Below are positions 9,236 through 44,823 of a stretch of 64,000 bases of DNA, piece after piece. The notes beneath the pieces were generated by a model. It did no database searches, was not told the origin of the DNA, and saw only the letters and a program-made list of their open reading frames with translations. Location: assembly GCF_036373705.1 (NCBI RefSeq), contig NC_089866.1, positions 2,386,001 through 2,450,000 on the forward strand, read 5' to 3'. Source of the stretch: Amia ocellicauda. Lineage: Eukaryota; Chordata; Actinopteri; Amiiformes; Amiidae. Both the position numbers and the translations under genes were made by a program. Numbering within the stretch: the stretch's first letter is position 1; each line of letters opens with the position of its first letter.

Positions 9236-9629
9236 CATGTGCTGCGGCGCGGCCGGGCAGTCGGGCTCCTCGCACGGCGTCCAGCGCACGCAGCGCGACG
9301 TGGGCTCACACTGGAGTTACGGCGCTCGGTGCGCGGAGGGGGCTGTCCTCGCCGATGCCCGCTCCCGGTGCGTGTCCAGCAGGAGCCGAGACGGGTCCCA
9401 CGGCGGAGAGTCCCGGGGCAACGTGCGGACAGTGCCGAAAACAGAGTCGCGTCGCTGGACTGTGACAACGCGCCGGCTCTCCGGTGGGACAGTCGCATGG
9501 GTCCACCTGCGGGTCAGCCGGGGTGCAGCGGCGTGTCCGGCGGGCTGGTGTGCTCGGCGGGCCGGCGTGTGAGGACAACTTCGCTCGGCTCTGCTGGAAC
9601 CAGCTGTCATTCAGCGGCACAGCCTCCGG

Positions 9630-9648
9630 CCCCGCCCCCGTGACGTCA
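9630..9648. promoter_or_regulatory. GC-box next to a full CRE upstream of MCRIP2
   Basis: A CCCCGCCCC Sp/KLF box is followed directly by a perfect palindromic TGACGTCA cAMP-response element (9641-9648), about 405 bases upstream of the MCRIP2 ATG. Next to it on the far side (about 9650-9663) is a GGCAGGGGGCGTG stretch on the minus strand, which resembles a CTCF core. Confidence 0.6.
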
Positions 9649-9776
9649 GCACACGCCCCCTGCCGCCTTAAAGGGGACGCGTCCTTCACACGCCGCCAGA
9701 TGACCTTTCACCTGCACAGGCCGACGGTCCCTTTCTCCGTACTTTTGTCCCTCCATGGAAAAATACTGTGACTGTG

Positions 9777-9806
9777 CGTGCGTGTGTGTGTGTGTGTGTG
9801 TGTGCA
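9777..9806. repeat. (GT)n microsatellite
   Basis: About 13 GT dinucleotides with minor interruptions, in the intergenic sequence just beyond the MCRIP2 promoter. Confidence 0.9.
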
Positions 9807-12800: not shown

Positions 12801-14357
12801 AACACATTGTGAGAGCCCACTGTTCTTCATGAGAACATGGCAGGCAAAGTCGGAAACAAGCGCACATTGCGGTGTGTAATCAGAGAGTTTGATGTTTAAT
12901 GGTCCCGTAACTGGAACTTTATTGTAGGAATTATTGTTGTGGTGTGGCGATCTGGATTGAGAGTTCACGGTTATGACGGACTGAGGAAACAAAGTCATTC
13001 CTCCACTACAGCAGCACAGATAGTACATCCTTCCAGACCAGAGATGCTGGTCGTTGACAGTATTGTAATAAACGGGATCAGTGTTAATTCGAGTAGCTCT
13101 CTCGTTCCCACAGTAGGGCGATGATGTCGGGCTACTTCTCTCGCTGAACCAGGTTTGGAGAGGGGGCTCAGCAAAGGACCCTGGCTGGGAAGTCGTTTCT
13201 GGCCTGTTCATTAAACATGGCGTTTGAATTGAACTTCTCTCCTCAACCCTGTGGAGATGCCGGAGGACAGGGCTGCATACTCCTGTCAACACAATGGGGG
13301 TCTTGCTGGGGGCCAGACAGGTCTGTGGAGTAGCTCCCCCCAACCCAACATGACAGCTGAAACTCTCTTTAAAAAGCAGTCAACATACGCAGTGCTGACC
13401 TTGATGGGTTTCGAAAACCGCTCAGGAACCGTGAGGACACTGAAGTAGACTGGCCATTGTCGAGCGGTTTGAAAACAAACCAAACCAAACCAAAATAAAC
13501 ACCTCGCTGTCAGCCTGAAAATGAGCATCCCGTGTCAGAGCCCTGTCCCCTCGCTGGGTCTGCCCAGCGGTGCCCAACCTGGGCAGACACACGGGAAAAA
13601 AAAGATTTATGCCGGATCTTGAACATTTAAATCTGCTGAATTGCAGAAGAGAAGCACATCCAGCAGAGGTTATTAAATCCATCCTGCCTTTAAGATAAAT
13701 AGAAACAAAAATAAGTCATTTCTGCCCCCCGGAGGCGGCGCTGTGTTGGTGTTGGATCAGCTGTGGCTGTGTCTGTGCAGTGCGGAGATCCTCTGTGGCG
13801 TTTTACAGCGGGACAGGCGCTGTGGACGCCAGTGCACGCCGCTCACAGCAGGAACGATTGGTCTCCGTGCGTTCAGGGCCAATATTTTTCTCCTGAGCAT
13901 TTAAAGATGCGCATCAGACACAGCAGCCAGCCTTCACAGTTCAGTATTTTCCATGCCACCCAGAGATGAGCGAACACCCCCCGTAGTGTGGGTTCTGAGG
14001 GGGGAGGTTAATCACAGTCCACACATGTGGTAGGCACCTAAATCGAAAACAAAGTGCAGCGCTGCGCCCGAGTCGCAAAACGGTGTTGCGCTTATAGGCC
14101 TATCCCCACCCCCGGGCTCTGTAGCGGGGTGTTCTGGAATCCCTGGGTGTTCTGGAACGGTGCAGTGGAGGGGTTTCTACAGGGGCTGAGCTGCAGATGG
14201 AGAGGCTGTGCGAGTTCTGCGCTCTCTGTCTAGCAGCAGGGAGGAAGGGGAGGACAGGAGAGAGGGACAGGCTAGGGTCCGGGGCAGTGGGGGTCCGGTC
14301 TGTGTGCGGGGGGTGTGTCTCCAGTCTGCTGTGTTCCTGTGTGGGACGGCTGTGTGT
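9807..14357. other. Intergenic space between MCRIP2 and GDE1
   Basis: Apart from the repeat at 10.19-10.56 kb and a run of 18 G at 12701-12718, I see no gene, RNA or recognisable element. Open frames here (for example on the minus strand at 12696-13343) lack any recognisable domain or splice partners. The end nearest GDE1 should hold its 3' UTR. Confidence 0.55.
10190..10560 (-). mobile_element. Old interspersed repeat with LINE/SINE-type 3' tail
   Basis: Read on the minus strand, the end at about 10195-10250 is TTGTAAGTTGCCCTGCAGAA followed by GGGTGTCTGCTAAGAAATAA and an A/T-rich tail. This is a degraded form of the GTAAGTCGCCCTGGATAAG...GCGTCTGC tail shared by many fish LINEs and SINEs. 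The same tail occurs near 23.22 kb and 58.45 kb. The body toward 10560 is AT-rich and unlike its surroundings; its outer limit is a guess. Confidence 0.6.
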
Positions 14358-17300
14358 TCAGTAATGGGGCTCACAGTCCTCCACCAGGCTGTCAGTGATG
14401 TAGCTGATGCCCAGCACTTCCTGGTAAAACTGCTTCTCCACAGATGTGTTGATGGTCCAGGCCACCACCTCCACGCTCCGCTCTGCCCAGTACTGCACGT
14501 AGTCCCTGCCAGGGAGGAGGACACACACACACACACACACACACACAGGGTATCGTAACTGTGGTCCAAACTCAAGAGCTGAGCCCTTGGCATCGGTGAG
14601 CGTCACCCGCTCAGCTGTTCTTTGTTCTGCCTTGCGCATCTGAGCAGAGACTTTCTTTGTTTTCAATTTCAGAATCTGCTTCTCTGCAGATCTAAAGAAG
14701 GTACAATCTGTACTGTAAATGTCATCACCGTAGTGTAATTGCGGTAAAGAGAACGTCACTGCGATTGTAGTTTCAGCCGACGATGCTGCTGCAAGTGCGA
14801 CTGGAATTTTAGTCCCAACGGATCCCATGCGCAAGTCCACCCCCCGGCGGTTGTCTCCCCCCCGACAGAGCAGTTCTCAGGACATGACCTCTGACCCCAC
14901 TTCTCCTGGCTCCGCCCCCGCTGTAACAAACTGTAACATGTGAACAACCCTTGACTCTGTGACAGCCCCCCCCCCCCACCCCACCAGGCTGTTTAAAACC
15001 ACACAGTCTGAACGAGCTAATAAACCTGTCACTCAGAGGAGCAGATGCCAGGAGGGGGAAGGACTTCGGATTCAGGTGGCAGACAGTATGAAGAATATCT
15101 TGTTACAAATAATCAATAAAAACATTTGGAATAAATAACCCAGACATACTTCTAAAGCTCTGTGGCGAAGGTGGCCCTGCTGATGACAGATACAGGGGTA
15201 TTTTAAAGAGCTGAAGCACTGTAGTGAAGCGAGCGGGCGGCTGTGATTCCCCCGCATGCTCTCCGCTCTGACGAGGACAGACCCCCATCCTGGCGATGCG
15301 CACGGATCGGCCGACCGGCAGGTTTCCCCGTGTTTTGTGAAGAAGCTGCTCATCCAACACCTCAGAGGAAAGCTGTCACTGCAGTGTGTGTATAATGTGA
15401 CTGTCCTACTTAGCGTGTCAGGAAACACACTCGGTTCTCAGGCGAAGGGTCTTTTGTTTGGATTAAAAAAATAAAAAGCGAGTGATTTGACCTGAAACGC
15501 TGGTGCCTCCGTTTGATTTTGCGGGTTTGGAAAGCGGATTTGCCGGTTCCAGAGGAGGCACCATCTAGCACAGCAGCATCAGTGATCATTGAGGAAGAGG
15601 ACGAGTGGCACGGGCCCTCGCTGTGGTGGTGAATCGGTGAGGAAGAGGATGACTGAGCGGCTGGCGGCGGGGGGCAGTACTCACGGGGAGATGAAGCTCT
15701 TCTGCATGAGGAAGGCCGAGACGCCGCACAGCTGCCACAGCAGGTGGTGATGCGCCCAGTCCAGCAGCACGTCCAGCGCCTGCAGCCACTGGTGCTTCCA
15801 GGGCGAAGGGAAGCGCGGGGTGCCGTCGCCCAGCCGGCTCAGGCTCCAGGGCCGGTGCGTTAGGGCCGTCACCACGTCGGGGTCGGCCTGCCGCATCTAC
15901 AACGAGCGCACAAACATGCACAGACACACAGACACACATGCACGCACAGTTTAATCTGGCTTTCCTGCACCACAAGTGACCTTGCTATGCTTTCACAGGG
16001 CCGGTACCTTGTAGATGACTTTGGGCTCAAAGGAGCAGACGATGCTCATGTTGTAGAGAACAGGGTACTCTTTGTACATCTTCTTCAGAGTTGTTGCTGC
16101 CTGGGACGAGAAGACCGGGACACGGTTACCATACTAAAGAACAGTCGTTAGTATAAGTAAATAATCTCTTCAGTTCTCTGGACAGTGCCACAGCAGCCAT
16201 GCCATGCCTTCCAGTGCAACCGAGCACCCCACATGACTTGACAGTGATGAACCAAGAGTGTCGAGCTGAAGGACAGGGAGAGGGGGATTGTGGGTAAAGA
16301 GGAAACCCCCCAGTGCTGGTGGCCTCTCACCCCATGACACACAGTCGTACCTCATCCGCATGACCTTTGACATCGAAGTAGATGGTGAGCTGGTTCCTGA
16401 TGCACTCCTCCACAGCCTCCTTCAGTGTGGGGACCCTCTCGCCGCGGAACATCTCCCTGTAACCCCCCCCCCACACACACACACACGATGTTAACACAAA
16501 GGCTGCACGGACAAATATGTATCTGGCCCGACCGGTGCCCTGGAGTCGGGGCGAGAACATCGTGGCCGGGGGCAGTGCTCTCAGGGGTGTTTTCCTGCGG
16601 GCGCCCACGTTGTGTGAGTGTGTGACTCTGCCCACCTGTGCCGGTGCTTAGCCGCGGCATCCAGCCGGCGCAGGTCGCTGTAGTGCAGCTGGCTGAGCGG
16701 GCCTGAGCCGTTGGTGGTGCGGTCCACCGTGTCGTCGTGCATCAGGATCGGGACGCCGTCAGCGGTGAACTCCAGATCCAGCTCCACTCCAGTCGCCCCG
16801 TTCTCACTGGCCTGGAAGGACAGACTGAGAGTCACTGGGCAGTAGGGCTGTGCGATATGACGATATATATCGTATGACGATAGAAAAAAGTCTATCGTTT
16901 CATATTATGCTATATCGTTTATATCGTGGTGTCGCAAATCGCAATCTTTACGGCAGTATTTTTCGTCATTAGGACGCTTTGCGTTCTTCCCGGTTCTTCC
17001 ACACGTATTGGATGCGGCAAGAAATGAGCATCAGAAACACAGACAGACATGAGGAGAGTGAAGTGACACACAATAACCACAATAACCAAAAGACACTTTA
17101 ATGCGCAAGCGCACACGTTGCGCCCCGCTCTCGTCACCGGGCTGAACTCGATCTGCAAGCACCCCCCACCCCCGCTAATATAGATTGATATAATTTGTAT
17201 AAAATTAATAATAATGTTTGTTTGCATTTTAATAAATTGGAAAGCAATGCAAACAAGATGCAGAAAGTATCATTTTCTTTTTATTAAGATGGTGAAGTAG

Positions 17301-19327
17301 TTCAACAGTTGTATTATTATTATTATAACTATTTTGTATTAACAACGTGCTGTACTTAGAATCGAAACGCGACAGTCAGAGGAGAAATGTCCCTGTCTAG
17401 CAGATGATAATGCGCCACTGTAAACCCGGCTGTTGCTAAATCTACATGAATCTATAGCATTTTACAGCACATGTGTTGCGTGATTACTATTACTTGTGTT
17501 ATTGTTGTTATGTGACAATAAATCATAATGTGTATATGTACAGTGAGGGAAAAAAGTATTTGATCCCCTGCTGATTTTGTATGTTTGCCCACTGACAAAG
17601 AAATGATCAGTCTATCATTTTAATGGTAGGTGTATTTTAACAGCGAGAGACAGAATAACAACAAAAAAATCCAGAAAAACGCATTTCAAAAAAGTTATAA
17701 ATTGATTTGCATGTTAATGAGGGAAATAAGTATTTGACCCCTTCGACTTAGTACTTGGTGGCAAAACCCTTGCTGGCAATCACAGAGGTCAGACGTTTCT
17801 TGTAGTTGGCCACCAGGTTTGCACACATCTCAGGAGGGATTTTGTCCCACTCCTCTTTGCAGATCCTCTCCAAGTCATTAAGGTTTCGAGGCTGACGTTT
17901 GGCAACTCGAACCTTCAGGTCCATCCACAGATTTTCTATGGGATTAAGGTCTGGAGAATGGCTAGGCCACTCCAGGACCTTAATGTGCTTCTTCTTGAGC
18001 CACTCCTTTGCTGCCTTGGCTGTGTGTTTTGGGTCATTGTCATGCTGGAAAACCCATCCACGACCCATTTTCAATGCCCTGGCTGAGGGAAGGAGGTTCT
18101 CACCCAAGATTTGACGGTACATGGCCCCGTCCATCGTCCCTTTGATGCGGTGCAGTTGTCCTGTCCCCTTAGCAGAAAAACACCCCCAAAGCACAATGTT
18201 TCCACCTCCATGTTTGACGGTGGGGATGGTGTTCTTGGGGTCATTCCTCCTCCTCCAAACACGGCGAGTTGAGTTGATGCCAAAGAGCTCGATTTTGGTC
18301 TCATCTGACCACAACTCTTTCACCCAGTTCTCCTCTGAATCATTCAGATGTTCATTGGCAAACTTCAGACGGGCCGTACATGTGCTTTCTTGAGCAGGGG
18401 GACCTTCTGCTGCAGGATTTCAGTCCTTCACGGCGTAGTGTGTTACCAATTGTTTTCTTGATGACTATGGTCCCAGCTGCAAGATCCTCCCGTGTAGTTC
18501 TGGGCTGATTCCTCACCGTTCTCATGATCATTGAAACTCCACGAGGTGAGATCTTGCATGGAGCCCCAGACCGAGGGAGACTGACAGTTATTTTGTGTTT
18601 CTTCCATTTCCAAATAATCGCACCAGCTGTTGTCACCTTCTCACCAAGCTTCTTGGCGATGGTCTTGTAGCCCATTCCAGCCTTGTGTAGGTCTACAATC
18701 TTGTCCCTGACATCCTTGGACAGCTCTTTGGTCTTGGCCATGGTGGAGAGTTTGGAATCTGATTGATTGATTGCTTCTGTGGACAGGTGTCTTTTATACA
18801 GATAACGAGCTGAGATTAGGAGAGTCCCTTTAAGAGAGTCTCAGCTCATTACCTGTATAAAAGACACCTGGGAGCCAGAAATCTTGCTGATTGATAGGGG
18901 ATCAAATACTTATTTCCCTCATTAACATGCAAATCAATTTATAACTTTTTTGAAATATGTTTTTCTGGATTTTTTTGCTGTTATTCTGTCTCTCGCTGTT
19001 AAAATACACCTACCATTAAAATGATAGACTGATCATTTCTTTGTCAGTGGGCAAACATACAAAATCAGCAGGGGATCAAGTACTTTTTTCCCTCACTGTA
19101 TATATGTGCTCTGAGGAAGTCGAAACGCGTAAGCATTATGATGTTCACTTTTTCTCTAAAAAATAATTTTTGAGACATTGGTGAATGTGGACTGTTTTTA
19201 GACAGGAGCTGCTGTACCATCCTCATATAATACGAATAATTGTTCTATATAAAATCCCATTGGATAAGGCACCCCGCATTTAAGATTTATTAAAACTATT
19301 GTAACGCCAGCTATTTTTAAACGTATG

Positions 19328-19368
<41 letters not shown>

Positions 19369-20008
19369 TAACACAGGTAATAGTAATCACACTTGCCCTG
19401 TAATGTGTTGCATTCTGTATTTCCCACGACAGCCTGCATGTAGTATTTGTTAGTTTTGCTTATTGAAGGATTAACAAAATACTTTAAGGCACTGCATGCA
19501 TGCAAACACCATGACTAATTCCCGAGCCGTGGCGTGCAGGACACTTCACTGCTGTGTTTTCATGGCGGGGCTGACTGCTGCCGTCAGAGCAGCCCAGTAC
19601 AGGACAGTGTTATTAAACCTGTCGGTGCACCAGCAGATCTGTTTTACTCCCTGCAAAGTCCATCAGTATAAACGGCGGTCAGTGTTTTACAGGAACCCGA
19701 CAGAAAGCACCGGCTGCCCTTGACAGAGACGGGGGACGTACCTTCCGGATGGCAGCCAGGGTGTTCTCCGGCGCGTCGTGCCCCCCGCCGCGGTGAGCCA
19801 GCACCGACACCCCGCGGCCCGCTGCTCTGCTGCTGGGCCGCAGGACCTGCCGGGCCCGGGCCGCCGGCACCTGGGGGAAGCGGAACAGCACCAGGAAGAG
19901 GTACAGCGACACCGTGAGCGCCGTGGAGTAGACCGGGCTGCGGGTGCCCAGCAGCAAGACCAGGAACACGACGGAGAAACAGGCCAGGCCGTCACCGATC
20001 TGCAGCAT
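14358..20008 (-). CDS. GDE1: GDE1 glycerophosphodiester phosphodiesterase 1 (MIR16)
   Basis: Membrane enzyme that hydrolyses glycerophosphodiesters, including glycerophosphoinositol and glycerophospho-N-acylethanolamines. Minus-strand coding exons: 20008..19742, 16811..16636, 16456..16351, 16100..16008, 15896..15685 and 14505..14358. They sum to 1,002 bases, 333 residues plus stop, with all phases matching; the human protein is of very similar length. Two hydrophobic stretches cover about residues 8-20 and 31-43. The GDPD catalytic site is intact: His72 in [13 protein letters not shown], Glu99 and Asp101 in GVELDLEF, and His114 in [13 protein letters not shown]. The exon 3 end FDVKGHADE and the C-terminal [15 protein letters not shown] are also family signatures. 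The start was chosen as the ATG just before the first hydrophobic stretch; the next upstream in-frame ATG lies inside the CA repeat. Intron 1 contains a Tc1 element. Confidence 0.95.
14519..14547. repeat. (CA)n microsatellite in GDE1 intron 5
   Basis: About 13 CA units lie only about 10 bases upstream of the exon 6 acceptor (on the minus strand, within its polypyrimidine/GT-rich region). Confidence 0.85.
16840..17165. mobile_element. Probable hAT-type DNA transposon fragment
   Basis: The stretch opens with AGTAGGGCTGTGCGATATGA and runs into many ATATCG/TATCGT palindromic motifs. This style is typical of the ends of non-autonomous hAT elements in fish and frogs. I could not find the matching inverted end, so it is probably truncated. 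The right limit is a guess. It lies in GDE1 intron 1, upstream (in + coordinates) of the Tc1 copy. Confidence 0.45.
17541..17741. repeat. Tc1 terminal inverted repeat, left arm
   Basis: About 201 bp, with an inverted copy at 18897-19098 that differs at only a few positions. The inner end of this arm also carries GAGGGAAATAAGTATTTGAC, an internal version of the outer tip, as expected for IR-DR type Tc1 elements with two transposase-binding repeats per arm. Confidence 0.92.
17748..18741 (-). pseudogene. Tc1 transposase, broken by two frameshifts
   Basis: Read on the minus strand. The first frame (18741..18352) starts [20 protein letters not shown] and carries the paired helix-turn-helix DNA-binding region. 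A second frame (to 17748) carries the catalytic domain with the three DD34E sites: Asp in LWSDETK, Asp in [10 protein letters not shown] and Glu in [11 protein letters not shown]. Between about 18430 and 18370 the coding frame changes twice: a short stretch reading [12 protein letters not shown] uses the third frame before the catalytic frame opens. An intact family member would be about 340 residues. All catalytic acidic residues survive, so the copy is only modestly decayed. Confidence 0.92.
18784..18870. repeat. Internal palindrome upstream of the Tc1 transposase
   Basis: CAGGTGTCTTTTATACAG and, inverted, CTGTATAAAAGACACCTG bracket a further CAGCTCATT/GCTGAGATT inverted pair. Together they could fold into an imperfect hairpin between the transposase start and the right terminal repeat. 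It probably holds the promoter (TATAAAA-like). Confidence 0.8.
18897..19098. repeat. Tc1 terminal inverted repeat, right arm
   Basis: About 202 bp, the inverted partner of 17541-17741. It contains both the inner and the outer direct-repeat motifs (TACTTATTTCCCTC and TACTTTTTTCCCTC). Confidence 0.92.
19325..19366. repeat. (TA)n microsatellite in GDE1 intron 1
   Basis: About 20 uninterrupted TA/AT units. Confidence 0.95.
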
Positions 20009-20217
20009 CTTCCACTCCCCGAGGAAGCTCGTCGTCAGCCGGGTCCCGGTTCTGGGTGCGTCCGATGTAGCGCTTCTATAGCCGGGCGGAGACGCGTTCT
20101 CTGCGGCTCTGGAGATGCATCTGCCGGCGATCTGGCGCAGGAAGCAGGAAGCGCAGCTCAGCTGCGGAGATGCGAGAGGAGCTGGTGTTAGTGTAGCCGT
20201 TCTGCCCCTGCCAGCAC
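20009..20217 (-). promoter_or_regulatory. GDE1 5' UTR / proximal promoter
   Basis: About 210 GC-rich bases separate the GDE1 start codon from the huge CA-rich array, so the whole proximal promoter must either fit here or include repeat DNA. No TATA box is seen. The transcription start site is not defined. Confidence 0.55.
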
Positions 20218-20292
20218 TACACACACACACTACACACACACACTACACACACACACACACACACACTACACACACACACACACACACACACA

Positions 20293-20350
<58 letters not shown>

Positions 20351-20402
20351 CACACACACACACACTACACACACACTACACACACACACACACACACACA
20401 CA

Positions 20403-20442
<40 letters not shown>

Positions 20443-20471
20443 CACACACACACACACACACACACACACCA

Positions 20472-20517
<46 letters not shown>

Positions 20518-22522
20518 CACACACACACCACTACACACACTACACACACACACCACTACACACACACACTACACACACACACACACACACACTACACACA
20601 CACACACACTACACACACACTACACTACACACACACACACACACTACACACACACACTACACACACACACCACTACACACACACACACACACACACACCA
20701 CTACACACACACACCACTACACACACACACGCACACCACTACACACACACACACTACACACACACACACACACACACACCACTACACACACACAGCACTA
20801 CACACACACACATCACTACACACACACACACACCACTACACACACACACACACACACTACACACACACACACACACATCACTACACACACACACCACTAC
20901 ACACACACACACACCACTACACACACACACACACACCACTACACACACACACACACACACCACTACACACACACACACACACACACCACTACACACACAC
21001 TACACACACACCACTACACACACACACACAGCACTACACACACACAGCACTACACACACACACCACTACACACACACACACACCACTACACACACACTAC
21101 ACACACACCACTACACACACACACACACACCACTACACACACACTACACACACAGCACTACACACACACAGCACTACACACACACACCACTACACACACA
21201 CACACCACTACACACACACACACACACACACACACACCACTACACACACACACCACTACACACACACACCACTACACACACACACACACACACAAACCAC
21301 TACACACACACACATCACTACACACACACACACATCACTACACACACACACACACCACTACACACACACACATCACTACACACACACACACACAAACCAC
21401 TACACACACACACATCACTACACACACACACATCACTACACACACACACCACTACACACACACCACTACACACACACACACCACTACACACACACACACA
21501 CACACCACTACACACACACACACACACACCACTACACACACACACACACACCACTACACACACACACATCACTACACACACACACCACTACACACACACA
21601 CACACCACTACACACACACACACACCACTACACACACACACCACTACACACACACACACACAGCACTACACACACACAGCACTACACACACACACCACTA
21701 CACACACACAGCACTACACACACACAGCACTACACACACTACACACACACCACTACACACACACCACTACACGCACTACACACACAGCACTACACACACA
21801 CAGCACTACACACACACACCACTACACACCACTACACACACACACATCACTACACATACACACACACACATCACTACACACACACACACCACTACACACA
21901 CACACACATCACTACACACACACACCACTACACACACACACACACACCACTACACACACATACACACACCACTACACACACACACACACAGCACTACACA
22001 CACACACAGCACTACACACACAGCACTACACACACACACAGCACTACACACACACCACTACACACATCACTACACACACACACCACTACACACACACACA
22101 CACCACTACACACACACACACACACCACTACACACACACACACACAGCACTACACACACACAGCACTACACACACACACACACAGCACTACACACACACA
22201 TCACTACACACACACAGCACTACACACACAGCACTACACACACACAGCACTACACACACACCACTACACACACACACCACTACACGCACTACACACACAC
22301 AGCACTACACACACACCACTACACACACACCACTACACACACACCACTACACACACACACCACTACACGCACTACACACACACAGCACTACACACACACC
22401 ACTACACACACACCACTACACACACACACCACTACACGCACTACACACACACAGCACTACACACACACACACCACTACACACACACCACTACACACACAC
22501 ACCACTACACACACACACACCA

Positions 22523-22555
<33 letters not shown>

Positions 22556-22880
22556 ACTACACACACACACACATCACTACACACACACACATCACTACAC
22601 ACACACAGCACTACACACACCAGCACTACACACACCAGCACTACACACAGCACTACAGACACACACAGACACACACAGCACTACAGACACACACACACAC
22701 AGCACTACACACACAGACACACACAGCACTACACACACAGACACACACACACACAGCACTACACACACGGACACACACACAGCACTACACACAGCACTAC
22801 ACACACAGACAAACACACAACACTATACACACACAGCACTATACACACACACACAGCACTACACACACACACACCAGCAC

Positions 22881-22912
<32 letters not shown>

Positions 22913-23050
22913 GCACTATACACACACACACACACACACACACATACAGCACTACACAAACAAACACACACACACACCAGCACTACACACACAGCCAACA
23001 CACCAGCACTACACACACAGCCAACACACCAGCACTACACACACACACAC
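20218..23050. repeat. CA-rich tandem array (CACTACACACAC-type), about 2.8 kb
   Basis: Runs of (CA)n are punctuated every 10-40 bases by TA, CCACTACA, CAGCACTACA or CATCACTACA steps. Variants follow one another in blocks: GCACTACA-rich near 21.0, 21.7 and 22.2 kb, and CAGACACACA toward 22.7 kb. The plus strand has almost no G. The long plus-strand open frame of THTH-type residues is a by-product of the repeat. The array starts about 200 bp from the GDE1 start codon. Confidence 0.97.
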
Positions 23051-23204
23051 CCGTGGGATTGCAAATGCGTGTATGTATGATATGTGTATGTATGTATGTA
23101 TGATGTGTGCATGTGTATGTCATTAGTATTTGCTTTTTCCTGCACTAGGATGCATGTGATTTATTATGTTTACTGTACTTTGTGATGCGTGGAAAATGTT
23201 TCTT

Positions 23205-23275
23205 GTGAAAAGTGTAAGTCGCCCTGGTAAGGGCATCTACTAAGAGTTAAACAATTACATTTAAAATAATGTTTT
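23205..23275 (+). mobile_element. LINE/SINE 3' tail fragment
   Basis: GTAAGTCGCCCTGGTAAG followed by GGCATCTACTAAGAGTTAAA, then A/T-rich sequence, is a short decayed copy of the same 3' tail seen at 10.2 kb (minus) and 58.45 kb (plus). It sits in the about 550-bp non-tandem island between the two large arrays. Confidence 0.6.
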
Positions 23276-23604
23276 CTATTAAATGATCTTCCATAATTTA
23301 TTGTCATGAAAACAATAAAGCAGCATATTGTGTGTAAATGTTGTTCTAGCCCACATCTCTCCTCGACAAGCTTAATGAATGTGTCAGACACACACTCCTC
23401 ACAAGTCCCACAGTTACAGTTCATTCATCCTGGGCCGTCGCTTTCTCATAAGAACATCAGATTTTGTACAAACGACGGGAGGCCATCGTGCTGGTTGATA
23501 CGGTGTGTACCACTGTTTACTGAATAAACAGAGAGGACGGTACTTTACCACTAAGTGTTGTCAGTTGCATGTGTTTGGGCTGGATTTAGGGAGAACCCAC
23601 ATTT

Positions 23605-26600
23605 ACACACACTGTGGAGACACACACACTCACACTGACACACTGTGGAGACACACACACTCACACTGACACACTGTGGAGACACACACACTCACACTGA
23701 CACACTGTGGAGACACACACACTCACTCACACACTGTGGAGACACACACACTGACACACTGTGGAGACACACACACTCACTCACACACTGACACACTGTG
23801 GAGACACACACACACACTGACACACTGTGGAGACACACACACTCACACTGACACACTGTGGAGACACACACACTCACACTGACACACTGTGGAGACACTC
23901 ACACTCACACTGTGGAGACACACACACTCACTCACACACTGTGGAGACACACACACTCACACACTGACACACTGTGGAGACACACACACTCACTCACACA
24001 CTGACACACTGTGGAGACACACACACACACACTGACACACTGACACACTGTGGAGACACACACACTCACACTGACACACTGTGGAGACACTCACACTCAC
24101 ACTGACACACTGTGGAGACACACACACTCACACTGTGGAGACACACACACTCACTCACACACTGTGGAGACACACACACTCACACACTGACACACTGTGG
24201 AGACACACACACTCACTCACACACTGACACACTGTGGAGACACACACACACACTGACACACTGTGGAGACACACACTCACACTGACACACTGTGGAGACA
24301 CTCACACTCACACTGACACACTGTGGAGACACACACACTCACACTGTGGAGACACACACACTCACTCACACACTGACACACTGTGGAGACACACACACTC
24401 ACTCACACACTGACACACTGTGGAGACACACACACACACTGACACACTGACACACTGTGGAGACACACACACTCACACTGACACACTGTGGAGACACTCA
24501 CACTCACACTGACACACTGTGGAGACACACACACTCACACTGACACACTGTGGAGACACACACACTCACTCACACACTGTGGAGACACACACACTCACAC
24601 ACTGACACACTGTGGAGACACACACACTCACTCACACACTGACACACTGTGGAGACACACACACACACTGACACACTGTGGAGACACACACACTCACACT
24701 GACACACTGTGGAGACACACACACTCACACTGACACACTGTGGAGACACTCACACTCACACTGTGGAGACACACACACTCACTCACACACTGTGGAGACA
24801 CACACACTCACACACTGACACACTGTGGAGACACACACACTCACTCACACACTGACACACTGTGGAGACACACACACTCACTCACACACTGTGGAGACTC
24901 ACACACTGACACACTGTGGAGACACACACACTCACTCACACACTGACACACTGTGGAGACACACACACACACTGACACACTGACACACTGTGGAGACACA
25001 CACTCACACTGACACACTGTGGAGACACTCACACTCACACTGACACACTGTGGAGACACACACACTCACACTGTGGAGACACACACACTCACTCACACAC
25101 TGACACACTGTGGAGACACACACACACACTGACACACTGTGGAGACACACACACTCACACTGTGGAGACACACACACTCACTCACACACTGTGGAGACAC
25201 ACACACTCACACACTGACACACTGTGGAGACACACACACTCACTCACACACTGACACACTGTGGAGACACACACACACACTGACACACTGACACACTGTG
25301 GAGACACACACTCACACTGACACACTGTGGAGACACTCACACTCACACTGACACACTGTGGAGACACACACACTCACACTGTGGAGACACACACACTCAC
25401 TCACACACTGACACACTGTGGAGACACACACACTCACTCACACACTGACACACTGTGGAGACACACACACACACTGACACACTGTGGAGACACACACACT
25501 CACACTGACACACTGTGGAGACACTCACACTCACACTGACACACTGTGGAGACACACACACTGACACACTGTGGAGACACACACACTCACACTGACACAC
25601 TGTGGAGACACACACACTCACACTGACACACTGTGGAGACACACACACTCACTCACACACTGTGGAGACACACACACTCACACACTGACACACTGTGGAG
25701 ACACACACACTCACTCACACACTGACACACTGTGGAGACACACACACACACTGACACACTGTGGAGACACACACACTCACACTGTGGAGACACACACACT
25801 CACTCACACACTGACACACTGTGGAGACACACACACTCACTCACACACTGACACACTGTGGAGACACACACACACACTGACACACTGTGGAGACACACAC
25901 ACTCACACTGTGGAGACACACACACTCACTCACACACTGTGGAGACACACACACTCACACACTGACACACTGTGGAGACACACACACTCACTCACACACT
26001 GACACACTGTGGAGACACACACACACACTGACACACTGACACACTGTGGAGACACACACTCACACTGACACACTGTGGAGACACTCACACTCACACTGAC
26101 ACACTGTGGAGACACACACACTCACACTGTGGAGACACACACACTCACTCACACACTGACACACTGTGGAGACACACACACTCACTCACACACTGACACA
26201 CTGTGGGGAGACACACACACACTGACACACTGACACACTGTGGAGACACACACACTCACACTGACACACTGTGGAGACACTCACACTCACACTGACACAC
26301 TGTGGAGACACACACACTGACACACTGTGGAGACACACACACTCACACTGACACACTGTGGAGACACACACACTCACTCACACACTGTGGAGACACACAC
26401 TCACACACTGACACACTGTGGAGACACACACACTCACTCACACACTGACACACTGTGGAGACACACACACACACTGACACACTGACACACTGTGGAGACA
26501 CACACTCACACTGACACACTGTGGAGACACTCACACTCACACTGACACACTGTGGAGACACACACACTCACACTGTGGAGACACACACACTCACTCACAC

Positions 26601-29045
26601 ACTGACACACTGTGGAGACACACACACTCACTCACACACTGACACACTGTGGAGACACACACACACACTGACACACTGACACACTGTGGAGACACACACA
26701 CTCACACTGACACACTGTGGAGACACACACACTCACACTGACACACTGTGGAGACACACACACTGACACACTGTGGAGACACACACACTCACACACTGAC
26801 ACACTGTGGAGACACACACACTCACTCACACACTGACACACTGTGGAGACACACACACACACTGACACACTGTGGAGACACACACACTCACACTGACACA
26901 CTGTGGAGACACACACACTCACACTGACACACTGTGGAGACACTCACACTCACACTGTGGAGACACACACACTCACTCACACACTGTGGAGACACACACA
27001 CTCACACACTGACACACTGTGGAGACACACACACTCACTCACACACTGACACACTGTGGAGACACACACACACACTGACACACTGTGGAGACACACACAC
27101 TCACACTGACACACTGTGGAGACACTCACACTCACACTGACACACTGTGGAGACACACACACTCACACTGTGGAGACACACACACTCACTCACACACTGT
27201 GGAGACACACACACTCACACACTGACACACTGTGGAGACACACACACTCACTCACACACTGACACACTGTGGAGACACACACACACACTGACACACTGAC
27301 ACACTGTGGAGACACACACTCACACTGACACACTGTGGAGACACTCACACTCACACTGACACACTGTGGAGACACACACACTCACACTGTGGAGACACAC
27401 ACACTCACTCACACACTGACACACTGTGGAGACACACACACTCACTCACACACTGACACACTGTGGAGACACACACACACACTGACACACTGACACACTG
27501 TGGAGACACACACACTCACACTGACACACTGTGGAGACACTCACACTCACACTGACACACTGTGGAGACACACACACTGACACACTGTGGAGACACACAC
27601 ACTCACACTGACACACTGTGGAGACACTCACACTCACACTGACACACTGTGGAGACACACACACTCACACTGTGGAGACACACACTCACTCACACACTGT
27701 GGAGACACACACACTCACTCACACACTGACACACTGTGGAGACACACACACACACTGACACACTGACACACTGTGGAGACACACACACTCACACTGACAC
27801 ACTGTGGAGACACTCACACTCACACTGACACACTGTGGAGACACACACACTGACACACTGTGGAGACACACACACTCACACTGACACACTGTGGAGACAC
27901 TCACACTCACACTGACACACTGTGGAGACACACACACTCACACTGTGGAGACACACACTCACTCACACACTGTGGAGACACACACTCACTCACACACTGA
28001 CACACTGTGGAGACACACACACTCACTCACACACTGACACACTGTGGAGACACACACACACACTGACACACTGACACACTGTGGAGACACACACTCACAC
28101 TGACACACTGTGGAGACACTCACACTCACACTGACACACTGTGGAGACACTCACACTCACACTGTGGAGACACACACACTCACTCACACACTGACACACT
28201 GTGGAGACACACACACTCACTCACACACTGACACACTGTGGAGACACACACACACACTGACACACTGACACACTGTGGAGACACACACACTCACACTGAC
28301 ACACTGTGGAGACACACACACTCACACTGTGGAGACACACACACTCACTCACACACTGTGGAGACACACACACTCACACACTGACACACTGTGGAGACAC
28401 ACACACTCACTCACACACTGACACACTGTGGAGACACACACACACACTGACACACTGACACACTGTGGAGACACACACTCACACTGACACACTGTGGAGA
28501 CACTCACACTGACACACTGTGGAGACACTCACACACTGACCCACACACTGTGGAGACACACACTCACTCACACACTGACACACTGTGGAGACACACACAC
28601 ACACTGACACACTGACACACTGTGGAGACACACACACTCACACACTGACACACACTGACACACTGTGGAGACACACACTCACTCACACACTGACACACTG
28701 TGGAGACACACACACACACACACACACTGACACACTGTGGAGACACACACACTCACACACTGACACACACTGACACACTGTGGAGACACACACTCACTCA
28801 CACACTGACACACACTGACACACTGTGGAGACACACACACACACTGACACACTGACACACTGTGGAGACACACACTCACACTGACACACTGTGGAGACAC
28901 TCACACACTGACCCACACACTGTGGAGACACACACTCACTCACACACTGACACACTGTGGAGACACACACACTCACACACTGACACACACTGACACACTG
29001 TGGAGACACACACTCACTCACACACTGACACACACTGACACACTG
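23605..29045. repeat. GTGGAGAC minisatellite array, about 5.4 kb
   Basis: The core CTGTGGAGACAC recurs throughout, separated by spacers built from ACACACAC, CACTCACT, CACACACTGACA and similar words. Spacer types follow a partly repeated order, giving higher-order blocks. The 192-bp blocks starting at 25182, 25930 and 27190 translate identically on the minus strand, and 27446-27664 is repeated at 27719-27937. From about 28.5 kb the GTGGAGAC cores become sparser and longer CACTGACACACTGACA spacers appear. The array ends next to the CCP110 5' exon. Confidence 0.97.
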
Positions 29046-29054
29046 GAGAGTGTG

Positions 29055-29280
29055 TGCTGCTGCGCCTGCGCGGCGGGCTGCGGGTTGCCGGGAGGCGCTG
29101 TTGGCGCGGGAAGATGGCGGCGCTGGGGGCGGCCGGCGGGCGGCGCGTCCCTCCTCAACCGACAGCGATTCAATAAACATGTCGGCGAGAGCAGGACCCG
29201 CACACCGCGCCGATACTGGATCATCTCGCCGCAGACCAGACGAGCAGTCCAGACAGCCGGCTTTAAACAGCCAGTGTCAG
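29055..29280 (+). promoter_or_regulatory. CCP110 core promoter and 5' exon
   Basis: A sharp switch from minisatellite to CpG-rich sequence occurs at about 29050. An NRF1-like TGCGCCTGCGCGG lies at 29061-29073, an E2F site TTGGCGCGGGAA at 29101-29112, and a YY1 site AAGATGGCGGC overlaps it at 29111-29121. A good splice donor (CAG|GTAGGC) follows at 29280/29281 and joins in phase to the acceptor at 30854/30855. The exon is taken to start near 29100. CpG-rich sequence continues to about 29.54 kb. Confidence 0.75.
29114..29176 (+). other. Upstream open reading frame in the CCP110 5' exon
   Basis: The ATG within the YY1 motif opens a 20-codon frame that ends at TAA (29174-29176), just 2 bases before a second ATG at 29179. 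If the transcript starts upstream of 29114, this short frame could damp translation. If it starts inside the YY1 site, it may be skipped. Confidence 0.4.
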
Positions 29281-30869
29281 GTAGGCGTGGCGGTTGTCAT
29301 CGCTTATGTACCCCTACAGACGGGGGGAAACGCCAGTGTCGCTGCCGGGGCCGGAGTGTGTGTAACGGCTGCTCTGTGTTCAGTCGCCGGTGCCACCGTT
29401 TCATCTGTGACTGATGGCGCCCCGCCGCCCGGCTCCTTTATACACACCGTCACAGAATAGCGGCGGTGCCGGCACAAAGAGCCCCGGAGCCCGGCTCAGA
29501 GCGCCCTGTGCGGGACGGGGGAGGGATGCCGGTGTGGCCGGAGCGTCTGCAAATCACAGCCTTTTGGGGTCTGTAATAGTGTGATTATTATACCCCGGGT
29601 GGGGGGACGGCTGTGGCCGCTGTGACAGTGCGGCTCTATGGGCTGAATGTGCGACAGCCGGGCCTGCAGTGATGAGATCGGCTGTGGCTGCTCGGCTCTT
29701 TTCTCTGCGGTTTAACGGCCGTCGGTTCTTCTTTGTGTTTGGATGTGGACAATATCAGCCTTTTTATTCAGTCTGAAAACATAAGAAATGGTTCAGGATC
29801 ATTTTCAGGCGTGTTTCAGCATTAATATCAGTATAGTAATAGTGTAGTAATCACAAGGATAGTCGGGATGGGCTTTCAGTTACTGTACGTATTTCAATTA
29901 GATGACCTTAATTACCCCTGTGTCTATTATAGTGGTACTGGAGGTTTATGTAGCTGGGATTGTAACGGCAATCTTGTAGCCATGTCCTGTATACCCAAAG
30001 ATGAGTGGGTCATAATAATATTGTATAAAATATACATTATAGCAAGGCTTTCTTGGGCTTTCCCCTTAATAGCCAGAGACCATTTGAGCCCCTGTGTGGA
30101 CCGGCCATAGAATCACAGTAACTCATTGTCACTTTCTGAATAGAAGCTCGGAGATGTGTTACAAGAAACAAGTGATTCAATTATTGTTTTTCAAGATCAT
30201 TATCATTATATGAAGGCACAGATCGCTTCTGATCAGATCAGGGCTGGGTTAAGCCCTTGCAGTTTCATTTTTTGGGGGTGGGTGGGGCTGTTTTTCAGTG
30301 ATGTACAAATCCTGTAAAACACACAGGCTGTTTTGTGAAGCTGTTGTTTCCAGAGCCATCCCCCCGGAGACAGAGACGAACACAGAAAATGACTTAATCT
30401 CTCAGTGGGGGTTTGGTGGGGGGGGTTCACTCCTGACTGCAGCCGAGTCAATACCTGGGAGTCCAGTCAGCCCGTGGAGCGCCAGTCAGGCGTTGCTGAT
30501 GTCTGTTAATGTCTCCCTGAAGAATAAGACAATCGGGCCTGCTTCCAGATTTTTCTGTCAGCTCTTTTCTTTTGTTCAAATTAATGAGCTGTTTCCATCT
30601 CTGATTGGTTTAAGAGCAACATACCTCTTGGAAGAGGTTCCTCACATTAATGTCTAGAGAGGTGTGTGTTTTTGTGGACCTGGGCTTTTCAGCTCAGGAG
30701 CGTAGAAGCTGCAGGGGTCGCCCAGGGGCAGTGTATTCAAGTCTGACGTACAAGAGGTTAACTCTGGGTACACCGAAGGTTCAGACACAGCCTCCTGTAA
30801 CCCTGAACGAATGCAGCCGATCCCATGCCGTTGTCCTCTGTTGTGTCTGTGCAGATCGGCCGGCCCGAA

Positions 30870-33800
30870 ATGGAGAGCTACGAGGAGTTCTGCACCCATA
30901 GCCTGGCGCGTCTTCAGGCGGAGGGGCCACTGAGCAGCGTGACCACCGGCCAACGGGGGGCGCTCTCCATCATCCAGTTCCATGGCATGGCAGTTCTGTC
31001 TCCTCTGGTAAGGATCGGGGCACAGCGATGCACGCAGGCTCGCACACATGGACATCGGCCCCGAAGCGCCCATATGTACCCTGAAGAGCAAGCATGTCAA
31101 GACTGTGTGTGTAAACACATCTGGTCAGGGGGGAGGTTGTGTTACAATAACCACAGATGGCATTGAATAGAATCAGAATCAGGGCTTGAGGGGTAACTGT
31201 GTACCAACCAGTTTGCATTCATTTCTGTACCAATGGAATATTTGTGGGAATATTTAACATCAATATCGGTGTTCTGTTCAACTGAAATCACAAAGCGATG
31301 TATGCCCTAGTCTTGAGTTTGGGAATCTGGGATTATTATTTTTCCCTGTAAGGAAGTGAGTGGGCCTGAGGAGTTGTCTCTGTCGTGGAGGAAACATTTC
31401 CTTCCCTCCCAGGTGCAGCAGCCAACGCTTGGGCAGACATCAGCGATTCCAACTTGTGTGATTAAAAAAGTGGCTGATTTCTGTTGCTGTTTGTCGAAGT
31501 CACCAGGTAATCGCAGTGCAGATCGGGCTGCCTGGTCCCTGTGTGTCCCCAGGCGCGTGTCCTGTGAATGTTTGAGTTGCGTATCGCTTGGTTACTAAGT
31601 GGAGTCTGCTGACGCTGGTTGCTGTTGACGGTAGTAGTTGTAGTAGTGGAGCTCTCTGCACACGCTGCATGCTGACTCACAGAGCTCAGTCCATGAGTGG
31701 CGGCTGCGCTGAGGCACCGTTACTCCACAGCCGCTAATAGAGACCTCGGTGCTGCAGGAGCTTGGTTGGCGCAGGGTGTGAGCTCTGTGGAAGCCGCCTC
31801 GTAGATCTGAGGAGCTGCCATTCATTGAGAAGGTATTCTGAAAAACATTGCTTTGCCACATATTAATAATAATACAAAATAAAACTCTAAATGTAATTTG
31901 TAAAGTTAAGTAAACATTTTGGGTAGTAGCTGAGATATTATGGAAGGCGCTGATGTGTTCCTGACTTGTGAGTGTTTTGTAATGAATAAGTGTGAACCGA
32001 GGCTTTGATTATAGCACCGACTTTGGCTTTTGAAAGCATCTCTTGACTCGTGGACCCCCGAGAGAAACCAGCTCGTCCTCGCCTCGCCACTCAGGTCACG
32101 TTACAGGTCAGGATGCTGGCAGAATGGCAGAAAGAACCATTATGAAAGAAAAATCATCTAGAATATTGAAACTACCAAAAAATAGTGAACTTCAGGACCT
32201 TTTCCACATTGTTAATCTGTATAGCCATGCATTACTACACTGCACTGTATCTGGTGTGTATGTCATGTGTTTGCTTTGCATGTGTCTGTATACATGGTTT
32301 TATCTTTGCGACCGTCTGCCGCTGTCATACTGTCAGGGAGCTGAATGGCCGGCCGAGATTTTTGGAGGTCAGACTCAATAAAGACCCTGCAGGGGTCGAG
32401 GTCGTTCCTCGAAGGTGAATTATTCACGAGTGTGTTTTGCTTCCTTTCTGGCACGGGAGGAACCTAATCAGTTAGGTGTTTGTTCGGCAGCTGCGCATGG
32501 TTTTCACTCGGGTTTTTACCTGTGTTCGCAGTGCTGATGTTACTTTGTGATTTTTGTACCAACAAAGGGATTTAACATATTATGTCATGTAGAATTTGTG
32601 GCTGGTTGGTGTAATAGTTATTTTTGACGTGTGTGCCCTTGTGGAAGAGGCCCAGTGGATCGATGCGGTTGCCTGGCCGGTCCCGATGGTGCCGTATCCA
32701 AGGGCAGGGGAGTTTACTGAAAGTGACACACAGCAGTCACAGATCGTGGTGGGAACAGGCACTGCGGCGCTGATTACGAAACTGATGGGCTGGGATCGAG
32801 TTACTCACAACTGTTTATGTGTCGGTGTTAATTAGAGGTGTGAGGGTTTCAGGCAGCATGTGAACCATAACACACAGCAATTCTGTTCCAGAAGAGTCCC
32901 AGACGTCCAGTAAAGGAAAAAAAAGAACAACAATGACTTGGGGGAGGGGATGAAGGCTTGAAGTCTGTGGTGACCAACTCGGCTCCATCACTCGATCAGA
33001 GAACAAAAGGCTCTGGCAGGTTGTGCTGTGTGTTAATCTTCTCCATCCCTCCACAGAGCTCTCTCACAATAGGACCCGTCCCACCTGCGCTCGTGATTTG
33101 GAAATCTTCCCTGTAACTGATGTCATGGCGATTGATCTTTAATAATCCCGTTTAATGATTGTTATAATTAATGATAATATCAGTTTAACTCCTGTGTAAG
33201 GGATGATAGGATGTCTGAGGGGTTTGAGTCCCTTGGTTTCGTATTGTTGTTCAGTCTTTTAGAGGGCTGATGTAGGTTTCATATGTAAGGTTGTGGAGTC
33301 TGGGTCTCTCTGTGTTTTGTAACTGTCACGTGTTGACCAATATGCTGTGAGCTGGGGAAGAGCAAACTAATAAAGTGCTTATTATTTCCGCTTGTTTCCT
33401 GCCTGGCCAGGGGCGATAAACAGTGTTCATTACAGTATCTTTCACGTCCTGCTTGGGGCTGTTTTCCATCTGAGACTGATATGACATTCAGTGCCTGTTT
33501 GAAACCTCAGATATTCATGAGTCATGATGAAACGCTGGGCTCCCAGACGAAGGCAGCGACTTGAGGCGTTCTAGTTTATAACCCCTCTCAGGCCCAGGTG
33601 GTTATTTCGTGACATCCCTGAACCCTGAAGGAGAGATGGGAGGGCGGTGGTTCTCGGTCATGTGTCACCCGCTGAGATTCAGAGAAACTGAGGCATGATG
33701 GACCTGTCTTGCAAATGGCTCGGACTAAGGGCAGCTACAATGACACGTGTGTGCCACGACACACGGCCAGTGACACAGTGGCAGTGGGGAGGACTGCGTG

Positions 33801-36800
33801 GTGACCCTCTGCGTGTGTGTTGCAGCTGAGTGCGGAGCAGCGGCAGGAGATGACGCAGTACCGGCAACGCGCCGTGGAGCTGGAGGCTGGCCGGCTCAGT
33901 GTGCGCCGGAGCACCCTGCTGTCCCGGGTACAGGACATCCTGGACAGCGTGCAGGTGAGGGCTGAGTGCTGAACACTGCGCACTACACACTGCGCACTAC
34001 ACACTGCGCACTACACACTGCGCACTACACACTGCGCACTACACACTGCGCACTACACACTGCGCACTTGGTGACGTGCCAAGCATCTCAGACCGTCTTC
34101 TTCAGCGAGTGTAAACGGCTGTATCTGGTGTTGTTTGCCAAGTGTGATTGCAAGGATTACACTGGTAAAGTGCTTGTCTGAGCAGACCTGGGGTCAGTCA
34201 CAATGCTGTGACTTCGAGATAACTAAAGTTGACCTAATCTGCTCTGCTTTCAATTCAGAGACCAAAGCAAAAGTTCCCATCCTAGCAAACACAAACAAAC
34301 AATCTGGGCACAGTAGGCACCCAGTGTGGGCCTGTTTACTATTCAGGAAGCATTAGCGTTCACCCCAACAAACTGTCATGAAACAGTCGCTCAGACTGCA
34401 GCTTTTGGTTTTGTTGTGAAAGGGTTAAGAGTTTGGCGATTTAGTCAGCCCCCCCACCCCCTTCTGCCTGGGACTGGGGCTGGAGTCTCTGTTTACTCTC
34501 TCTGCTAGGAGACGGCACAGGGAAGCATATAGCGTCAGAACTGCTCAGGTATAGACGCGACCCCCTCAGACAACTTCCCAAGCCTCCCCCTGGAGCCGCA
34601 GGTGGCCGTTTACAGGCGTCATTAATAGGGTTGTTTGAGCTCAGTTGTGTGTGTATCTGTGGTGCAGTGTGACACTGTCATGGCCCTAGGACTGCAGTAC
34701 CTGGGCTTGGCTGACATTTTGACATGGCATTCTGTGATTCAGGACAGGAACAGTGTTTTTGACCGTTTCCTGACACGCCTGTGTAGTGGTTTTAGTAAAT
34801 CCCAGGATACACCGATGAAGAAGTAACAAGTTTATTACAGAAAAAATAAATACAGGTTAACCCGGAGCTCTCCTCTCACATGAAGTGAAGAAAAGAACTG
34901 AGAATGTGAGTTGGATAAGCCTTTTTGTATCTTCAGAGACAATGGGTTACAGTCTTCTCTGTCGGAAGTGATTGCATCTCATTAAAATACAGTTGTACAA
35001 AATAGTTTACAACATACATAATAATTAACACAGACCTGAGTTTGTTACTGCTGTTTGATGAGTTGATTGTTGCTGCTCAGCATTCTTAGGCAGCAGATGT
35101 TTTTTAAAGACATTGTTGTAAGTCCTTAATCAAATACCTGTGCCCCAAAACACACAATCTCTATACTATTTAACTGTTTCAGCTGATTGAATATCCTAAA
35201 AGACAGTGGCTGAATGAAATCATGAGAAGACAATGCTTGATTGAAGTAACCCCTTGGACAGAAATGCATTAAGAGTAAATACAAACTAATGATTGTTTTA
35301 TAGACCAGACTGAATTAGCAACATGAAACCATTAATAATATATAGAGAATATAAAGGAAATAATAAAAGTAAATTTTCCCACTACAGCTGAATGTCCCAC
35401 AGTTTTCAGATCTATTTGTTTTCTTACTCGGCTCCTTGCCTTCCCATTCATTTTTGCTTCTTATGTAAATCACTACTGTTAAAAATAGATGCAATTAGTC
35501 ATTCTTTAATTGTCTTTGTGTGAAAAGACAGGGAGGCAGTCCCTTCTGTATTCCAGCTCTTCCTTTTATTCCTTTGATGGTCATTTTTAAGAGCAGGTAG
35601 AAAACCTCAGAGCCCCAGTGCGACGCTGGTAGACCGTCCCCAGCGCTTATTTTTAACTCGAGAAGGTCTCCAGGAGTTGGATTACAATAACAGAATCGCA
35701 CAAACAGGATCGGCCGCATGCCACAGATGAAGGAATAACTGGTTTATCTACTGATCACAGCACGCTCTCTCCCAGATGATTGTGGAGGAGATGGCTATGA
35801 AACCCACTGTGCTATTTAATAGTTTTTTATATTAATATTATTATTATTATTTAAATCTGGCTTGTATTAAAAAATACTTTGTAACACCATTCTATGTTTC
35901 TACTGATGTAAAATAGTCCTTTTGCAGTAAACGCTAAAGTGTAATCTGTATTCCACTCCTCCTGACTACTGGGGGGGTCTGGTTCCTGTGACTTGTCTCC
36001 CGCAGATGCGCACGGTGCCAAAGGAGGGAGAGACGGCCATGGCCCCCAGCCGCTGCTCCCCCAAGTCGGAGGTCATGAATGGCTTTGCTCTGCTGCCGGA
36101 CATGAACGCGCTGGGGCCCTGGGGGGGCAGTGTCCCGCTGAGAGCCGCCCCCAGTGAGCCGCTCCCTCAGCCCGACAGGGAGCGGGGGGAGTTGGAGGAG
36201 GAGGACCCCAGCTACACCATGAGCCTACAGAGCCTGCTGAAGAAGTCCCGGGAGTACCTGGAGAGAGAGCACAGCCGGCGCGGGTCCCGGGGCCACAAGG
36301 GGGCGCCGGCGCTGGGCGAGAGCCTCTCGGACAAGGAGAACGAGAGCGGCGGGGGCAGTGTGGGGGCGGGGGGCGAGCAGCCTCACTGTGAGGACCACCA
36401 ACACAGTGACAGCCCCCTGGCCTGGCCCACCACCCCTGCCCCCGTCCAGCAGCCGAGCTCGGACTCGGACAGCCCCGACTCTCTGTCCGTTCTGCCCCGC
36501 AGCCTGACGGGCTCCTACGCCCGGCTGCCCAGCCCCGAGCCCAGCCTGAGCCCCCGGGTGCACCGCCGCCGCCCCCGGCCCCTGTCGGCAGGGAACATCG
36601 TCATCACGCGGCCCCTCAGCGCCTGCGAGCTCAGCCCCCGCCCGGACAGGCAGCCCCTGCACGAGGACAGCGCCGTGCCAACACTGCAGGCTGTGCCGGG
36701 AGAGCCGGGCCCCTGGGAGCCCAGAGTGGAGCCCTGCCCGGCTGAGCTAAGGGTGCCCTCCACCCCGCACAAGAGGCAGAGCAGCCCCCTGGGCCAGGAG

Positions 36801-39800: not shown

Positions 39801-39928
39801 TGTGTCTGTGTGTTCTCCGTCTCTCGCCTGGCCTGAGAGATGTGACGAGACCAGGCCTCGAGGTGGAGCTGTGTGTCTCTGCCTGGTCGGGTGTCGGGGA
39901 TAGGATGGCAAATGGCAGTTTAATCATT

Positions 39929-39977
<49 letters not shown>

Positions 39978-40054: not shown

Positions 40055-40628
40055 GGCCCCCCCGCGGCAGGGCTCCTGCTCTGGGGACGCCGGTACAGGG
40101 CTCCTCACGCGACCCTCAGGGAGCCACTGTGGGCGGCAGGGCTGTCTCTTCACGCCGTGTTACAATATCTGCTGTTTACAATCCGGCTCAGTCCCTCGTT
40201 TTTATTCTGTTGTTGTTTTTGTACAAGCGACTCGGACCCGCTCCTCCTTCAGGCTTTTACTGAAGGCGTTTATTGACACTCCTGAGAACGAGCAGATGCC
40301 ATTGTTTTACCAGCATGCCAAATTAGAGAGCCGGGTCTGCGTGCCTGAGGATCCCCGATCGTGGCCGGATCGTGGCTGTGCCACGGTGGCCAGTACCTCA
40401 GGCCTGGTTTCCCCTGAGGCGCGGGGAGATCCATCGCTCTCTCCCCACGATGAGATCCGTGAGGCTGAGCTCAGGCGAGGCCATCTGTTGGTCAGAGAAC
40501 ACAGATATCTGTGTGTTCAGATCGTGTCTCAACGCTGGGATGGGACACCGAGGCGAGGGGCTCCCACGCCAACATCCAACCCCCACCTCCACCTAGAAAC
40601 AGTGCAGCTAACAGACCCCCATACGTGC

Positions 40629-40681
<53 letters not shown>
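40629..40681. repeat. (CT)n microsatellite in the CCP110 3' UTR region
   Basis: About 25 CT units with one CTAT interruption, about 600 bases after the CCP110 stop. Confidence 0.93.
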
Positions 40682-40684
<3 letters not shown>

Positions 40685-41563: not shown

Positions 41564-41569
41564 AATAAA
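41564..41569 (+). terminator. Candidate poly(A) signal for CCP110
   Basis: AATAAA lies about 1.5 kb after the stop codon, with GT-rich sequence downstream. An earlier AATAAA sits at 41160-41165, so alternative ends are possible. Confidence 0.4.
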
Positions 41570-42223: not shown

Positions 42224-42268
42224 AACGCGACGGTGAAAGTTCAACCTGGAGCGTTCGCTAAGCGTCAC

Positions 42269-44784: not shown

Positions 44785-44823
<39 letters not shown>

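Follow-up and report, generated by a model that had tools for sequence, protein, structure and literature searches.

Two CA-based tandem arrays fill the interval between the CpG islands of the divergent genes GDE1 and CCP110 in Amia ocellicauda

We analysed a window of 64,000 bp from Amia ocellicauda (contig coordinates C23:2386001-2450000; all positions below refer to this window), in which GDE1 on the minus strand and CCP110 on the plus strand are arranged divergently. The interval between the CpG islands of the two genes is occupied by two long tandem arrays, a degenerate CA/CACTACA microsatellite (array 1) next to GDE1 and a minisatellite (array 2) next to CCP110. The arrays, located with Tandem Repeats Finder (TRF) and by reading, cover 8,271 of the 8,828 bp (94%) at 20218-29045. 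This agrees with a first-pass annotation of the same DNA, which had described nearly 9 kb of tandem repeat filling the GDE1-CCP110 interval. The arrays are real and locally striking, and they belong to a known repeat kind. We consider it quite probable that each of the two arose by a tandem-repeat expansion of its own and that the CpG-island promoters on either side, which belong to a divergent gene pair, stayed intact.

Results

For array 2, TRF reports a period of 31 at 23607-28988 with further rows to 29033, and the end at about 29045 was set by reading the sequence. Splitting the array at its TGTGGAGA core yields 170 units of 22 types, the commonest of which is present 31 times. All units (170 of 170) have an odd length and all length differences are thus even, which is what slippage of CA dinucleotides would give. 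When the array is cut at each T, 713 segments are obtained that fall into 15 kinds. Point variation is low. The changes detected by eye beyond CA length and segment choice are TGGGGAGA, found once, and TGACCCAC, found in two copies. With tandem units within 9-100 bp and with interspersed variant units and copied blocks, array 2 is a minisatellite.

The order of the units in array 2 is far from random. The longest repeated string comprises 12 units, whereas no string of more than 8 recurred when the units were shuffled 1,000 times. The array also has 70 repeated 5-unit windows; the shuffled orders had 0.16 on average and never more than 8. Blocks of several units have therefore been copied within the array. 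The largest exact repeat measures 392 bp, with copies at 25067 and 25815. A regular higher-order repeat was considered and rejected, since lags of 407, 814 and 2035 match only at 0.52-0.55, the further multiples 1221 and 1628 are weaker (0.49 and 0.47) and the lags 157 and 2194 are equally strong. Because this lag pattern is irregular, we read the array as patchy block copying. Hairpin-driven expansion was also rejected, because in one 131-base stretch of array 2 the fold was no more stable than in shuffled versions (z 0.59 and -0.56 for the two strands). Judged from the one assembly, array 2 appears to be young or recently homogenised. At its CCP110 end (29038-29056) it terminates in an imperfect core, ACACACTGGAGAGTGTGTG, which forms a short inverted repeat where the island begins and could be a relic of the seed of the array.

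Array 1 is a degenerate CA microsatellite with a period-2 unit over most of its span (TRF: period 2, 80% matches, 18% indels) and 92% A+C. It contains 145 CACTACA units, and its 173 segments fall into 57 kinds. No exact repeat of 100 bp is present within it, and it looks less homogenised than array 2. The type of joint shifts along the array. The 472 bp closest to GDE1 contain no G and have long CA runs of up to 52 bp, and the last 472 bp contain 28 G and 18 AGCACTA joints, with the purest CA at the GDE1 side. Folding of one 131-base stretch of array 1 on both strands gave zero energy and no z-score.

The islands of both genes stop at the array borders, as the CpG observed/expected ratio (o/e) is high in the flanks (Table 1) and the arrays are nearly free of CpG, which occurs 6 times in array 1 and is absent from array 2. 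The opposite strands of the GDPD exon (minus) and the CaM_bind exon (plus) give the divergent orientation of the pair. Together with the reading frames and the CpG bins, they bear out the proposed divergent pair with a repeat-filled interval, which lies between two CpG-island promoters. The distances given in the first-pass annotation were also recovered: array 1 ends 210 bp from the GDE1 start codon, and array 2 ends 55 bp before a site that we take to be E2F-like, followed by one that we take to be YY1-like. The CCP110 start codon lies 1.8 kb past array 2, which is adjoined only by a probable non-coding first exon of CCP110 with a possible splice donor. The frame of the first GDE1 coding exon resembles the vertebrate GDE1 N-terminus, and the frame that opens CCP110 resembles the CCP110 N-terminus.

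The edge-to-edge distance from the GDE1 island to the CCP110 island is 8,828 bp, which would speak against start sites lying within 1 kb of each other. For the human GDE1-CCP110 gap we assume about 1-2 kb. The 8.8 kb between the islands is wide for a divergent pair, because a common definition of bidirectional pairs requires less than 1,000 bp between the start sites (as given in PMC2670823) and those of medaka are reported to lie mostly less than 400 bp apart (PMC11676430). The locus resembles bidirectional CpG-island promoters in its head-to-head genes, each with its own CpG island, and differs from them in the wide separation of these islands.

The two arrays differ in composition. They had been described as A/C on the plus strand throughout, which does not hold for array 2, where A+C is only 71% (15.6% G, 13.1% T) compared with 92% in array 1. 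It had also been suggested that alternating purine-pyrimidine DNA of this length would favour Z-DNA. This would apply to parts of array 1, which has 12 alternating runs of at least 24 bp (392 bp in total, 6 of the 12 between 20267 and 20515) and a longest alternating CA stretch of 55 bp, but not to array 2, in which no such run of at least 24 bp is found. Alternating steps make up 89% of array 1 and 71% of array 2, against 47-48% at 1-20000 and 30000-64000. Z-DNA across the whole interval was rejected on the composition of array 2 and its lack of alternating runs; judged from the base order, it is plausible in parts of array 1 only.

A common CA-repeat ancestor of the two arrays, as had been supposed, finds no support. 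The arrays have no 24-mer in common, and the 8- to 20-mers that they share consist of CA tracts bordered by no more than AG or T. CACTACA is absent from array 2 and the TGTGGAGA core is absent from array 1 on either strand. The shared CA words are nevertheless compatible with a common origin, because any CA-based array would look alike. Two independent arrays would have an even chance of being CA-rich on the same strand, and we infer that arrays 1 and 2 are independent.

Between the arrays lies a spacer of 556 bp, given as about 550 bp of non-tandem DNA in the first-pass annotation. Not all of it is unique. It holds a short TGTA array at 23069-23120 (TRF), and parts of 23141-23283 belong to a dispersed repeat, with matches at 39 further sites of the genome (among 40 scored of 278 candidates). 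We also used a genome sample of 26 regularly placed 10-kb stretches (260 kb; 20 on contigs C1-C4 and 6 on C23), and 23197-23270 recurs partly in 4 of these 26.

No array of at least 500 bp is found in the 26 sampled stretches, the largest being 282 bp. Because the sample is small, poorer in guanine plus cytosine (GC) than the window (0.35-0.48 vs 0.529) and not promoter-matched, kilobase arrays are shown to be uncommon but not unique. The word TGTGGAGAC, which occurs as 170 identical copies in the 5.4 kb of array 2, is present (itself or its complement) once each in 3 of the 26 stretches and never as an array. Tandem repeats cover 3.5% of the window outside the two arrays and 1.9% of the first 20 sampled stretches. 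The window is locally GC-rich, with 0.529 outside the arrays compared with 0.36-0.48 in six stretches of its own contig (1-7 Mb). For GC heterogeneity, gars are called the one known exception among fish and amphibians (so stated in PMC6909575). Further short tandem arrays, CA/TG-rich or C-rich, are seen at 37589-37727, 48582-48748, 51307-51404 and 60416-60521. A perfect 14-bp array of ACACTGCGCACTAC (6.9 copies, 33973-34068) begins 10 bp after the CCP110 calmodulin-binding match and includes the CACTACAC word of array 1.

Table 1. Features of the GDE1-CCP110 locus in the window
Feature	Position	Strand	Basis and remarks
GDE1 exon with GDPD domain	16611..16814	-	Pfam PF03009, E 2.8e-18
CpG island of GDE1, ending at array 1	19601..20217		CpG o/e 0.78-1.01 in three 200-bp bins (19601-20200); next bin without CpG
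GDE1 first coding exon, ATG at 20008	19799..20008	-	open frame; 19799 is the end of the translation made, not an exon boundary
Array 1, degenerate CA/CACTACA microsatellite array, 2,832 bp	20219..23050	+	TRF, unit counts
Spacer between the arrays, 556 bp	23051..23606		TRF, genome matches
Array 2, minisatellite, 5,439 bp, 171 cores (170 TGTGGAGA, one TGTGGGGAGA), units 23-45 bp	23607..29045	+	TRF and reading
CCP110-side tail of array 2, rarer unit types	28390..29045	+	mean type count 7.0 vs 16.1-18.7 in the remaining nine 17-unit blocks
CpG island of CCP110, beginning at array 2	29046..29800		CpG o/e 0.81-0.99, 200-bp bins 29001-29800
E2F-like site TTGGCGCGGGAA (29101) running into YY1-like AAGATGGCGGC (29111)	29101..29121	+	sequence
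Probable CCP110 non-coding exon 1, possible donor CAG/GTAGGC after 29280	29122..29280	+	sequence, inference; 5' end not mapped
CCP110 coding exon start, ATG at 30870	30870..31000	+	open frame; 31000 is not a mapped exon end
CCP110 exon with calmodulin-binding domain	33826..33963	+	Pfam PF16025, E 3e-6, 27.9 bits vs cut-off 27

The surroundings of the pair contain several other features. Between two GDE1 exons, Pfam identifies a Tc1/Sleeping Beauty-type transposon on the minus strand (17871-18741). Its helix-turn-helix (18586-18741) and DDE (17871-18314) matches are in different frames, so this copy is probably broken. To the left of GDE1, matches to the FAM195 (MCRIP) family are found at 4039-4098 and 7532-7657 on the minus strand and an Slx4 domain match at 2070-2237 on the plus strand. 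No RNA gene was found in the window, either as a tRNA or as an Rfam match at the gathering score, and the Pfam scan of 39000-48900 on the plus strand gave no match.

Discussion

Our favoured explanation is that each array expanded on its own between two promoters that stayed intact. Array 1 would be a CA tract lengthened by dinucleotide slippage, along which a CACTACA variant spread. Array 2 would have started from a CACACTGTGGAGACACAC-like seed and would change in two ways, through even-numbered steps in its CA-rich parts and through the copying of blocks of several units. The copying may proceed via unequal exchange between sisters or homologues or via gene conversion, and it would keep the array nearly free of point changes. 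The alleles are probably highly variable, and the arrays presumably have no essential function. An effect of the arrays on both genes is not required by the anatomy, because each CpG island reaches the array edge. If the arrays act at all, they would most likely do so passively: the distance of about 9 kb that they keep between the promoters would leave the pair without one common promoter.

Some points weigh against this explanation. It leaves unexplained the coincidence that two unrelated long arrays each end at the edge of a CpG island. The instability and the age of the arrays are deduced from one assembly. In favour of the explanation, recombinationally active chromosome ends are given as the location of most human minisatellites (PMC2599865), and a window near a contig end in GC-rich DNA fits this placement but proves nothing. 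The window starts 2.386 Mb into a 29.8-Mb contig, whose end may not be a chromosome end.

A single ancestral CpG-island promoter, shared by both genes, may have been split by repeat growth in this fish lineage. A dispersed element would have inserted into it, and an array on each flank would have grown outward to the edge of the surviving half-island, turning a co-regulated pair into one with separate promoters at a distance that depends on allele length. We give this scenario a small chance. The arrays might also be cis-regulatory DNA themselves, a regulatory variable number tandem repeat (VNTR) that acts through its TGTGGAGAC sites or through Z-DNA or nucleosome exclusion, so that allele length tunes GDE1 and CCP110. 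The crowding of 170 identical words beside a promoter and the long alternating CA in part of array 1 would suit this, and it is reported that the CA repeats found upstream of rat prolactin adopt the Z-DNA form and reduce transcription and that tandem repeats in yeast promoters exclude nucleosomes (both as given in PMC3899988). However, homogenisation explains the uniformity of the core equally well, array 2 has no alternating run of 24 bp and its folded stretch is no more stable than shuffled sequence, which makes tuning by the arrays improbable in our view.

It is similarly doubtful that the arrays are a footprint of recombination, with promoter CpG islands serving as meiotic break sites and the arrays arising as by-products of exchange from each island edge. 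Both arrays abut an island, blocks have been copied in array 2, and in vertebrates that lack a working PRDM9, recombination is reported close to start sites and CpG islands (PMC5519329). Of relevance if this fish is gar-like, the same source infers that PRDM9 was complete in the ray-finned fish ancestor, reports KRAB in a spotted gar transcript, and confirms the loss of KRAB and SSXRD in a gar ortholog (PMC5519329); a complete PRDM9 copy would speak against breaks directed to islands. Moreover, the polarity of the arrays is asymmetric, as the side facing the island carries the purest CA in array 1 but the rarer unit types in array 2. Tandem arrays are difficult for assemblers, and the assembler could have inflated or duplicated them. 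We regard this as very improbable, because neither array contains an N, the longest exact repeat is 392 bp and the order of units varies along the array, unlike in an assembler duplicate.

Array 2 has well-known counterparts. It resembles the hypervariable minisatellites of human autosomal loci in its 9-100 bp unit, its few variant types, their interspersed order and its copied blocks, and in its place near a contig end, most human minisatellites lying near chromosome ends; MSY1 is the block-type contrast to such interspersed variant units (PMC2599865, in the part used here). Array 2 differs from them in being based on the CA dinucleotide, with 52% GC and unit lengths in even steps, and it is known here from one assembly. 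A tandem array beside a promoter is also found in the insulin-linked polymorphic region, a promoter VNTR (as described in PMC11336075). The arrays here differ from it in flanking two genes and in that their regulatory effect is putative. They are, we presume, longer than the VNTR of the insulin locus. Among the matches listed in the literature search, no title or abstract opening concerned arrays splitting a bidirectional promoter. Among the papers found on CCP110, GDE1 and bidirectional promoters, no title or abstract opening dealt with the GDE1-CCP110 interval.

Array 2 is a clear example of a CA-based minisatellite held uniform by block copying and is otherwise ordinary. Should individuals differ in how far apart the islands lie, the locus would supply a natural allelic series of promoter separation in a divergent pair, and it would then test whether divergent pairs have to remain close together.

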